DNA of 29,541 nucleotides from Pseudomonadaceae bacterium UBA836 (GTDB lineage Bacteria > Pseudomonadota > Gammaproteobacteria > Pseudomonadales > Pseudomonadaceae). The stretch is taken from NCBI GenBank assembly GCA_002296055.1, contig DBHE01000196.1, positions 1-29,541 on the forward strand. Direction: 5' to 3'. Every line of letters starts with the position of its first letter. Position 1 is the stretch's first letter. Positions 3,839 through 9,867 of this stretch are shown piece by piece. The notes beneath the pieces are model-generated. The model ran no database searches, was not told the origin of the DNA, and saw nothing but the letters and a program-made list of their open reading frames with translations. The position numbers and the translations under genes were made by a program.

Positions 3839-4017
3839 GTAGGGGCACGGCATGCCGTGCTCGCCCTCGCGCGCACCCGCCATTCGCGCCGCCACCGTCA
3901 TCCCCATCTTTTCTCGCTATCCCCCTTTTCTCGTCATCCCCGCGAAGGCGGGGATCCAGATCCGCTACCACGCCAACCAAATGGATTCCCGCCTACGCGG
4001 GAATGACGGCAATTGAG
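3839..4017 (+). repeat. Dispersed palindromic repeat, copy B
   Basis: This is a direct copy of the repeat at 2351-2512, sharing the GTAGGGGCACGGCATGCCG start, the CCCCGCGAAGGCGGGG hairpin and the TTCCCGCCTACGCGGGAA hairpin. It has a short duplicated insertion (two 'TTTTCTCG' units) relative to copy A. It lies just downstream of the MerR gene. With copy A it frames the MerR/membrane-protein module. Confidence 0.85.
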
Positions 4018-4055
4018 ATCTGTGAGTGCTTTAAGCGCATACGCATTGGCAGACG

Positions 4056-4119
4056 CACGCTTCGCCCTACCGCCAGCCCTGCGCTACCCGCCCGCGTAAA
4101 CGGGACTGGGGTCCGTGCA
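4056..4119 (+). repeat. Left arm of ~65-bp inverted repeat around the integron cassette
   Basis: The segment from ACGCTTCGCCC to GGTCCGTGCA is the reverse complement, with some mismatches, of 5068-5133 (TGCACGG to GAAGCGT). The shared core is CGTTTACGCGGGCG, TAGCGCAGGGCTGGCGG. The rest of 4018-4254 shows no convincing gene. Confidence 0.75.
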
Positions 4120-4254
4120 TTCGCCACGTTCGCAGTTGCACAGCAAGACCGCGCTACTTCACCTAACCTTTATCCCTATTCAGGGTTGGCAAACGCGACG
4201 TGTAGTAGCACTATCAAATCACCGCACTTATCGCGGCCCCGTCAGGAGGCATGG

Positions 4255-4449
4255 ATGCTACATAGACCCGACTCATTTCACCTCGAATACCCAGCAGCAC
4301 CGTCACCTGCGTGCGAGCCTTCTCCGTTGACCCGTGAAGCGTTAAGCCTCGCTCAGTTTAACATTCAACACCAGCGCGAGAAGACTGCTAACCTATTGAA
4401 ATATAATAGAATATTAGGTCTCTGCATCCGGCGCTATGCCGCGTATTAA
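4255..4449 (+). CDS. Possible 64-residue small protein, unknown
   Basis: This is a short open frame beginning MLHRPDSFHLEYPAAPS and ending with a basic, helix-prone segment (SLAQFNIQHQREKTANLLKY... then IRRYAAY). It has an ideal ribosome site AGGAGG (4244-4249) five bases before ATG 4255. I do not recognise a named domain. It is not certain that it is translated: the frame is open further upstream to 4003, but the start with the ribosome site fits best. It ends 22 bases before the integron cassette boundary, and the DNA shifts to AT-rich from about 4390. Confidence 0.4.
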   Translation: MLHRPDSFHLEYPAAPSPACEPSPLTREALSLAQFNIQHQREKTANLLKYNRILGLCIRRYAAY

Positions 4450-4471
4450 AGTTAGCGCGATCTAATCACTG

Positions 4472-4969
4472 TTATGTGAAGGAGACGTAATGCGAAACTT
4501 AAAAGATGCTTTTCCGGGTGCGAAGTTCAAAGATCCGGCAAAAGAGGAAGACATTCTTGAAGCAGAGAGAATTCTTGGTGTGCTAATTCCGGAGAGATTG
4601 AAAGAGCTGTATTCTGAATCGGACGGATTTAGAGAAGATAAAGGGAATGCAAAGTATTTGCTGTCTGTATTAGATGAAGACTTCATTGGCTCGCTAGTTT
4701 CAATAACAAAACATATGTGGAGTGAATTCCCTGTTCCAGAATTCAGAAACTATATATTTTTTGGATCTTCGGTTACAGATTGTATTTGGGGAATGAATAT
4801 CTCAAAACAAAGCGAAGTAATTGCCTATCATCACTCTATGGAAGATGAGTTTGAGGTCGTTGGTGGGGATGTGATTGATGTTTATATACAAGATTATAGT
4901 ATTTACGAGCAGATCACATAACAAGTCGTTCAAGCTGACCGCGCTACGCGCGGTAGCTTAACTCCGGCG
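4472..4969 (+). mobile_element. Solitary integron gene cassette (SUKH cassette)
   Basis: The 498-bp unit has the features of an integron cassette. It begins after G in GTTATGTG (4471-4478), carries one promoterless-looking ORF 18 bp from the boundary, and ends in an attC site whose first 8 bases, CACATAAC (4915-4922), are the exact reverse complement of GTTATGTG. It ends at G4969 in GGCGTTAC. The cassette is clearly AT-rich compared with the flanks. No integrase gene or second certain attC is in the window, so it looks like an orphan cassette or the end of an array lacking the integrase. Confidence 0.85.
4490..4921 (+). CDS. SUKH/SMI1-KNR4 family protein, possible immunity protein
   Basis: This 143-residue protein has the SMI1/KNR4 (SUKH) pattern: an N-terminal helix EEDILEAERILGVLIPERLKELYSES (about residues 19-44) followed by DGF, a central strand NYIFFGSSVTD, and the late VIAYHHSMEDEFEVVGG region. 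SUKH proteins are commonly immunity proteins against contact-dependent or type VI toxins and are often mobile. No toxin gene is adjacent, so that role is inferred. ATG 4490 follows GAAGGAG with 5 bp spacing. Its base composition is far more AT-rich than any neighbour, and the stop TAA overlaps the first arm of attC. Family assignment is good; target unknown. Confidence 0.88.
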   Translation: MRNLKDAFPGAKFKDPAKEEDILEAERILGVLIPERLKELYSESDGFREDKGNAKYLLSVLDEDFIGSLVSITKHMWSEFPVPEFRNYIFFGSSVTDCIWGMNISKQSEVIAYHHSMEDEFEVVGGDVIDVYIQDYSIYEQIT

Positions 4970-4975
4970 TTACAC
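4915..4975 (+). other. attC recombination site
   Basis: R'' box CACATAAC (4915-4922) is followed by an imperfect palindrome: GTTCAAGCTGACCGCGC pairs with GCGCGGTAGCTTAAC leaving two unpaired bases, just as the extrahelical bases of known attC sites. The loop is very short. The R' box begins GTTAC at 4969, with predicted cleavage between G4969 and T4970. Length is about 61 bp, within the range of attC sites. Confidence 0.88.
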
Positions 4976-5067
4976 AATTTCCAAACTGTATTTTCTAAGT
5001 TATCTCGCGCCTAATTTACGGCCATAAAAAACTAGGACCTTCGGCCAGGAGCAAGACGGCTGACTAG
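4976..5067. other. Intergenic stretch right of the cassette, no gene seen
   Basis: Short AT-rich then mixed sequence between attC and the right arm of the 65-bp inverted repeat. I see no supported gene or RNA. It probably represents the DNA that lay beside the cassette insertion point. Confidence 0.4.
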
Positions 5068-5133
5068 TGCACGGCCCCAAGGGTCCCCGTTTACGCGGGC
5101 GAGTAGCGCAGGGCTGGCGGGAAAGAGAAGCGT
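5068..5133 (-). repeat. Right arm of ~65-bp inverted repeat around the integron cassette
   Basis: Reverse complement of 4056-4119 with mismatches; the best part is CGTTTACGCGGGCGAGTAGC and the following GCAGGGCTGGCGG. Open frames through this stretch (for example on the minus strand 5000-5245) look like translated repeat, not genes. Confidence 0.75.
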
Positions 5134-5227
5134 AGGATGTCTGAGGCGCGCAGCGCCGAGTTTTACGCTTCCCCGTCAGGCCGAGCAACGCAGCGAACCC
5201 GAAGGGCCGCGTGGTCGGGGTGGCATC

Positions 5228-5536: not shown

Positions 5537-5550
5537 CGATCAGCACGAAT

Positions 5551-5705
5551 CTCGATAGCCGTCTTTCCCGCGCAGGCGGGAATCCATTGGTTTGGCGTGG
5601 TGGCGGGTCTGGATCCCCGCCTTCGCGGGGATGACGGTGAAGGGCGGGGATGACGAGAAAAGGCGGAGGTGACGGTGAAGGGCGGGGATGGCCTTGCGGG
5701 GCGGA
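5551..5705 (-). repeat. Dispersed palindromic repeat, copy C (inverted, partial)
   Basis: Reverse-oriented relative of copies A and B: it reads CTCGATAGCCGT, then the TTCCCGCGCAGGCGGGAA hairpin, the conserved ATCCATTGGTTTGGCGTGG linker, and CCCCGCCTTCGCGGGG. The 3' part is degenerate, with repeated GGGCGGGGATG units, and lacks the GGCATGCC end. It runs up to the end of the pirin gene. Confidence 0.8.
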
Positions 5706-9700: not shown

Positions 9701-9867
9701 GGCGAGGCGCCGGGGTAGGGCGTGACTACCATGGCCATCTTCAGGGTAAAGGCCGGATCCTCCAGCCGCCCCAGATCGATAAAGGCGATGACGCCGCCAA
9801 TGCCGAGCAGCAGCGCGACCAGCCAGCTGGTCACCCGGCGCTGGATAAAGTACGCGGCAATATTCAT
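6799..9867 (-). CDS. RND-family efflux pump, inner-membrane permease
   Basis: This 1022-residue proton-driven pump of the AcrB/MexB superfamily (HAE-like) has TM1 near residues 14-31, a large periplasmic domain, TM2-6 from about 335 to 495, a second periplasmic loop, and TM8-12 at the C-terminus. The proton-relay helix reads GMLVDNAIVIVEG, with Asp402 followed by Asn where AcrB has two Asp; many RND subfamilies share this. The start is ATG 9867, which overlaps the adaptor stop (TAATG), so the two are coupled. No outer-membrane channel gene is in the operon, so a TolC/OprM-type channel is probably borrowed. Substrate unknown. Confidence 0.95.
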   Translation of the reverse strand: MNIAAYFIQRRVTSWLVALLLGIGGVIAFIDLGRLEDPAFTLKMAMVVTPYPGASPQQVEEELTYPLENAIQQLPYVDTITSTSSAGLSQIMVEIQDQYRAEQLPQIWDEMRRRINDLRPNLPPGVDEPQVMDDFGDVFGTFFMISGDGYDYRELRDYADYLRRELVLVEGVGKVNLAGVPQEEVHLEISRARMTALGIAPQRIYDLLSSQNVVSDAGRMLVGSESIRLHPTGEFQDVSELERLIISPPGSSKQVYLGDVAHITRGFTETPTSLYRSQGNPALGLGVSYAAHVNVVDVGNAVAARLAELEQDRPAGMQVTMFYNQSAEVENSVSGFVWNFLASVAIVIVVLLIFMGLRSGLLIGLVLALTVLGTFIFMQMIGIELQRISLGALVIALGMLVDNAIVIVEGILVGRQRGQTTLQSAGDIVGQTKLPLLGATAIAIIAFAPIGLSDDSTGEFCLSLFQVLLISLTLSWVTAITLTPFFASLFFRDQPTQSEQTEVEDPYRGIVFVVYRKLLASALHHRVLTLVMLGVLLVASVAGFSQVRQAFFPPSNTPMFFVDVWLPKGSDIRYTQQVVAEMDQYVLAQEGVTEVTSTIGQGALRFILTYFPERIHANYAQLLVRTEQRDQIVPLIAELDEYFKTQHPTAKVKLKQLMLGPGSDSKIEARFTGPDPEVLRALGAQAVAILKADPVADAVLHNWRERTKLVRPQFAEAQARELGVDKRDLDTLLKMNFSGVNVGLYRDGTRMLPIVARTPEDERLDASTLNDLLVWSSVRNAYIPITQVVSGFVTDWEDPLILREDRKRTLTVQADPSIISGQTAAELFARIRPQIEAIDLPRGYKLEWGGEYESSRDAQAAVFGSLPLGYLAMFLITVLLFDSLKRATIIWLTVPLAVIGVTLGFLLTGIPFGFMALLGFLSLSGMLVKNGIVLVDEIRLQIDSGKEAYSALVDSAISRVRPVSMAALTTILGMAPLLTDAFFQSMAVVIMFGLGFATVLTLVVLPVIYSLFFKIPVEGRRV

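Follow-up and report, generated by a model that had tools for sequence, protein, structure and literature searches.

Integrons are described as typically having one attI site near the integrase gene, and attI sites as poorly characterized and, outside class 1, missed by standard software (PMC9024848). It follows that orphan attIs, i.e., attI sites away from an integrase, would be missed as well. Among the closest described systems are CALINs, which are found in Xanthomonas at conserved loci away from intI (PMC12444791), and, in the Shewanella prophage M16-3, one CALIN with its own attI (PMC9892861). CALINs, SALINs and insertions at attG sites are already known; conserved orphan attIs at several loci are, as far as searched, the new part of the present analysis, and no description of them was found in the literature searched, most subscription papers lying outside its reach. 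Here, we discuss a solitary gene cassette in a 29,541-nucleotide stretch of DNA from Pseudomonadaceae bacterium UBA836 (the whole stretch is called the window in the following). With a probability of roughly 70%, an integron integrase inserted this cassette, which encodes a SUKH protein, into an orphan attI, that is, a docking site of the type found beside intI, but situated at another chromosomal locus that has no integrase gene.

The integrated cassette occupies positions 4471..4968 of the + strand (498 bp), counted from the G of the first GTT up to the base preceding the next GTT. As claimed in an earlier note made from the letters alone, the start of the cassette recurs in R'' as an exact reverse complement; GTTATGTG at 4471-4478 and CACATAAC at 4915-4922 are reverse-complementary at 8/8 positions, and each octamer is present only once on the + strand of the window. 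The same note had named a SUKH protein as cargo, and this assignment is supported by a match to Pfam PF09346 (32.1 bits vs. a cut-off of 25.4) of the SUKH (SMI1/KNR4) protein of 143 aa encoded at 4490..4921 (+). A search for relatives gave 51 at E<=0.001, a figure that includes the window protein; no PADLOC match was obtained for the latter. The role in toxin defence suggested by the note is putative. The ORF begins 19 nt past the insertion site, its stop codon falls within R'', and no further ORF of 60 aa or more is contained in the cassette. The marked AT-richness that had been remarked upon is equally borne out, with a G+C content of 0.400 for the cassette vs. 0.629 for the whole window.

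The attC site of the cassette is located at 4915..4975 (+). The bottom strand of this piece, folded as DNA, forms a hairpin that has a loop of 3 nt and is interrupted by two single-base bulges (z -2.87; 4/200 shuffles equally good), which agrees with the two extrahelical bases and the tiny loop proposed beforehand; a longer piece, 4905-4985, folds less strikingly (z -1.51; 12/200 shuffles equally good). A covariance model (R1) that was built from 12 attCs of other loci, with the window left out, and that contains compensatory changes in 13/18 pairs, finds the predicted attC at 4916-4975 with 35.4 bits (E=1.2e-6), this being its sole match at E<=5 in the 29.5-kb window. R'' complementarity, a structured attC with extrahelical bases and a single short ORF near the start with few non-coding bases—the features of a gene cassette—are all present. 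When used as a DNA query, the 61-bp attC revealed no second full copy. A strict attC pattern (RYYYAAC..GTTRRRY) was also tried on the own genome and is uninformative, because the reversed control gives more matches (94 forward and 94 reverse) than the pattern itself (43 and 43).

On its left, the cassette joins an attI-type core of 18 bp, GCGATCTAATCACT/GTTA (4457..4474, +; the slash marks the cut), the sequence of which is found, exactly or nearly so, at intI-adjacent attIs of other species. The DNA 5' of the insertion point (4130..4470, +) is a leader that, according to sequence matches, belongs to a multi-copy family in the genus Halopseudomonas, taken here to include, among others, H. oceani, H. 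aestusnigri, H. formosensis, H. pertucinogena and P. abyssi. For the leader of ~345 bp, 11 further matches of 175-407 bits are found in five other genus genomes, together with weak or partial ones, one of which is in the own genome on contig C209. The copies terminate at GCGATCTAATCACT/GTTA or a close form, followed by unrelated DNA; at one of them (G008:C1:1721085) the core is disrupted. Over ten copies, the mean identity to the window is 0.80 for the leader outside the core and 0.94 for the core, and drops to 0.11 by 45-60 nt past the cut.

A second block of the leader (4185..4265, +), which is strongly conserved, can be folded as a branched stem; wherever it was found together with the att core, it is situated 221-222 nt 5' of this core, and a copy without att core is present on C209 (L111:5545-5660). 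This block is possibly an undescribed structured RNA, as a candidate from its predicted fold, with compensatory changes in 0/23 predicted pairs; Rfam yields no match in the window at gathering scores and none in 4100-4500 at E<=5. Since a sigma-70 promoter scan of 4100-5100 returned zero hits, no Pc promoter is claimed. To the right of the cassette, a conserved flank (4969..5085) matches the genomes G001 (87%) and G008 (82%), both matches starting at 4969, and is followed by a high-copy dispersed repeat (5086..5219), which lies outside the cassette and has a partial inverted copy at 4057-4119. This repeat of ~135 bp has at least 17-23 matches in 9/10 matching genus genomes and at least two in G035. 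A 48-nt inverted repeat (4057-4104 and 5086-5133) was considered as the ends of a mobile unit and rejected, as it belongs to this dispersed repeat. REP-like repeats in inverted orientation, at 3893-4024 and 5544-5690, also flank the locus.

The identity of the insertion target becomes evident upon comparison with other species. A scan of public genomes for the core gave 53 stretches, including some from Stutzerimonas, Litchfieldella, Halomonas, Marinobacter, Methylonatrum and Tamilnaduibacter; 12 of the 53 fetched stretches contain an intI-like gene that is 54% or more identical to the own IntI, and one more (L163) has a 33% match. In Tamilnaduibacter salinus (L169), the window's exact GCGCGATCTAATCACT/GTTA adjoins an intI that is free of stops and 68% identical to the own IntI. 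A search that started from intI instead of from the motif, covering 25 intI loci of the genus, revealed the core with one to two mismatches upstream of intI in nine (L065, L066, L068, L069, L073, L074, L076, L080 and L083), mostly in the form CGGTCTAATCACT/GTTA, and a form with four mismatches at a tenth (L072). Judged by these matches, the insertion target in the window is an attI-type core. It has the sequence of an intI-adjacent site, exactly in Tamilnaduibacter and near-exactly in Halopseudomonas and Stutzerimonas, and different cassettes are found at the same base; the window site itself does not adjoin intI.

These matches bear directly on the view that the locus is a SALIN, that is, an ordinary off-target insertion of a single cassette into a non-classical genomic (attG) site. 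One attC without a nearby intI is what such an insertion would leave behind, and 115 SALINs have been published in 41 Shewanella genomes (PMC9229058). However, an attG site is neither attI nor attC, while the core in the window is of the attI type; moreover, the target is no loose consensus but an 18-bp core of the intI-linked attI type, which is multi-copy, occupies orthologous loci and mostly heads attC cassettes. Because this core is common to intI-linked attIs, such an off-target insertion is very improbable here. The earlier note had offered a CALIN-type remnant or an insertion at a secondary site; the CALIN/SALIN-type status of the locus holds, whereas a "secondary site" is not the best reading, because the target core adjoins intI in other species and recurs at orphan loci.

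How frequent such orphan cores are can be seen from a census of GRTCTAATCACTGTT, which occurs 45 times in 25/37 genus genomes, compared to zero for a reversed-pattern control, the conservation of the core among these pattern matches being given partly by construction. Each Halopseudomonas genome with exact cores has one to three of them. Among 398 genomes sampled from the family, 46 contain the 16-mer (control 0), all of them in 3/19 genera; viral contigs yielded no match to the exact core pattern, and no plasmid match was obtained for one 78-bp stretch that ends at an orphan attI (L174). Eight of the 45 genus sites are linked to intI, seven of them within 1.5 kb of the gene and the eighth beside a split intI (G022:C1:189282). 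The remaining 37 are orphan, three of which (G001:C17:160, G002:C17:421 and G011:C44:508) are no more than ~520 bp from the contig start, with the DNA further upstream out of view. In the fetched part of 2.5 kb around the 37 orphan sites, tblastn at E<=1e-3 detected no intI, the sole match being a recombinase of 33% identity in an element at G035:C43.

An attC on the right strand follows 33/37 orphan sites, 23 by an exact 7-nt R'' and ten more by model R1; in the control for the R'' test, 42/631 GTTR positions were positive, some possibly being genuine positions within arrays. The exact R'' scan is too strict, as it gave no attC at 5/15 sites listed and then at 14/38, where the model found 10 of the 14. 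The four orphan sites without attC by both methods comprise two (G010:C45 and G024:C66) where the contig ends ~1 kb past the site, one (G013:C35) with a transposase-like ORF, and one (G035:C17) that may be a chance match. The first ORF (>=80 aa) starts 10-70 nt past the site in 39 of the 45 cases (no control run), and the first 10 nt after the site are distinct in 42.

One junction counted among the 23, G035:C43, has as its first element not an ordinary cassette but a recombinase/IS91-like one. This element with a 312-aa tyrosine recombinase is known from two stretches (L114:6830-9239 and L263:5658-3762) that are 77% identical over 1.9 kb, and an ORF of it is read as an IS91-like transposase; a more distant relative (65-68%) is present in Marinobacter ELB17 (L163). 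Both copies begin at the junction GTT, one at an attI core in G035 and the other at the intI-linked attI in G016, and so it could be argued that another recombinase, such as this one, uses the site. Yet 23/37 orphan junctions have a cassette with an R'' matching its own start, which is the signature of IntI, and the IS91-like element is seen at few sites, so that such a role is extremely improbable.

Concerning the cargo, 20 chosen first-ORF proteins from orphan sites were scanned against Pfam and 20 against PADLOC, the latter with the window's included. Strong PADLOC matches are LmuA (L241), PDC-S32 (L258) and PDC-M34A (L112), and the weaker ones include a ThsB-like TIR protein, a type IIG restriction enzyme, Avs1c, PDC-S35 and DndD. 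Among the cargo proteins are also one with a HEPN domain (L255) and another SUKH protein (L106), the latter scoring 24.2 bits and thus falling short of the cut-off of 25.4.

Many of the orphan sites are, judged by their left flanks, orthologous loci, which share 984-1,516 bp upstream at 74-100% identity and are unalignable downstream from the cut. At locus A, represented in six species, the ~1,500 bp that precede the cut have an identity of 83-96%, and six different first cassettes follow it; downstream, only attC-sized patches or displaced stretches are common. Loci B, C, E, F and H are like locus A, with an upstream identity of 74-93%. At locus I, the upstream DNA is 94% identical, and the right flanks become alignable again (94%) 3.3 and 3.7 kb further on. 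The locus of the intI-linked attI presents the same picture. At locus D, the genomes G009 and G010 are identical at 100% over 2,015 bp before and at 99.9% over 1,789 bp after the site, and G010 is longer by exactly 1,029 bp, corresponding to two attC cassettes, the second of which has an R'' one base off its start. Because G010 is without an intI at E<=1e-60 and the intI of G009 contains two stops, the integrase at locus D acted earlier or came from elsewhere.

The window locus itself has orthologs in other genomes. In G001 (Pseudomonas abyssi), leader and tail are conserved and a cassette of 1,684 bp is present instead of the SUKH cassette, and in G002 the position is taken by a TIR-domain cassette, behind which, at the contig end, an ORF read as reverse-transcriptase-like, perhaps of a retron, was observed (L027:1-438). 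In G008, where the core is disrupted, leader and tail enclose a defence-like operon, the first ORF of which resembles the L241 protein that PADLOC calls LmuA; despite the disrupted core, an attC (43.6 bits; L026:9731-9802) abuts the conserved right flank at 9796. The ortholog in G012 has the core with two mismatches, and neither R'' scan nor model found an attC behind it.

The earlier note had described the cassette as lacking an integrase. This is correct for its surroundings, as no intI was found within 2.5 kb of the window site, and the locus—one attC, no integrase nearby—is not a complete integron; it does not apply genome-wide, since an intact intI without stops (403 bits) is contained on contig C181 (C181:29198-30127), the window being on a different contig of an assembly that is 84% complete and comprises 275 contigs. 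On C181, the intI-linked attI is followed by one attC cassette (24.3 bits). By attC model search, the own genome has at least two attC arrays besides, on C154 and C162, a lower bound, since 150 of the 2,226 first-look candidates were scored and the window site was not listed among them. Both arrays are headed by copies of the C181 intI-linked attI, GAAGTCACTGATATGCAAT..CGGTCCA....CT/GTTA, and tblastn detected no intI in the fetched stretches. On C154, 4/4 R'' are exact complements of their cassette starts, compared to the first one alone on C162, the attC of which scores weakly (15.1 bits, E=0.18). The own genome hence contains, besides the orphan site of the window, which is of another subtype, one attI linked to intI and two orphan copies of the latter attI. 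The C181 site, CGGTCCACTCAACT/GTTA, differs from the window core, and for this reason an action of the own IntI in trans on the window site is not supported by sequence; aligning the window leader by MAFFT to the three attIs of the own genome gave no meaningful alignment of the window type. In six genus genomes that have core sites, no intI was found at E<=1e-60, and only weak intI matches (~1e-22) were obtained for five site-bearing genomes from outside the genus, L. anticariensis, L. qijiaojingensis, Methylonatrum kenyense, Halomonas heilongjiangensis and Pseudomonas sp. TTU2014-080ASC. Given that several site-bearing genomes are without a strong intI, some of these ports are fossils or dependent on visiting integrases.

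Some indications of the origin of orphan sites come from the architecture of their platforms. The motifs GGGCGGTAGCGTGCC, CAGTAGTAAT, GTCAAGCGAATAC and CGGAGTTATATCG are common to orphan and intI platforms in several species; GGGCGGTAGCGTGCC is positioned at ~-1,190 where intI is intact vs. ~-200 where it is missing, the gap of ~990 bp being the size of intI. The middle motifs may be remnants of the intI promoter and LexA box. The platform ends similarly at loci A, B, E and G033:C82, which suggests copying of a platform without intI, the alternative being parallel deletion. The window-type architecture differs in that it is without the motifs GGGCGGTAGCGTGCC to CGGAGTTATATCG. A second orphan-attI architecture was observed at L238, L240, L271-L273, L275 and L277-L281; in G009 (L238), its neighbours are an smpB-like gene and an ORF read as a phage-type integrase. 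Its upstream motif is present in 9/14 Stutzerimonas (g15) stretches, six of which then have the same GTTAGTGGC start as G009.

Orphan platforms of other species that keep the intI-attI motifs and the motif 3' of intI without the gene itself, the split intI in G022 and the several site-bearing genomes without intI are also what would be expected of fossil arrays, i.e., several complete integrons that each lost intI and left cassettes stranded, with no exchange today. Such fossils alone are an unlikely explanation, considering that cassettes differ among species with flanks 83-96% identical, that one member of the locus D pair has two whole cassettes more, with flanks of ~100% identity on either side, that the tblastn search gave no intI around the 37 orphan sites, and that similar unit boundaries recur at unrelated loci. 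We lean, by a little, towards Halopseudomonas and some relatives running a distributed integron, with dedicated orphan attI ports that are dispersed along the chromosome at conserved, orthologous positions, are copies of an intI-less platform and are loaded in trans by one integrase. According to this scheme, orphan ports would go back to an intI-less form of the integron platform, either copied into several loci or left behind there; one IntI would load them in trans by attI x attC recombination; and the window cassette would occupy one port of a dispersed multi-attI integron.

If true, several first-position cassettes would be held simultaneously at different loci of a distributed integron. 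Should orphan attIs work, a cell would not be limited to one first position, arrays now filed as integrase-less remnants could be active landing sites, and conserved CALIN positions away from intI would gain a possible explanation.

Compared to known systems, the locus is like CALINs and SALINs in having attC cassettes without a nearby intI, but differs in that the arrays begin at an attI-type site, which the accessible parts of the CALIN accounts do not name except for the Shewanella prophage. That case, M16-3, concerns one prophage (PMC9892861), whereas here the sites are on chromosomal contigs, with up to three exact cores per genome at orthologous loci with differing cassettes. Insertions at attG sites (Loot et al. 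2024, via citing papers) share with the window the position of a cassette away from the integron, yet attG is described there as neither attC nor attI, while the window site resembles attI and is found repeatedly. In Stutzerimonas (g15), chromosomal integrons have the same attI core beside intI at 5/14 sites examined, the other 9/14 not being beside an intI of that type; in the 14 matching genomes there is one exact core per genome, in contrast to the one to three in Halopseudomonas.
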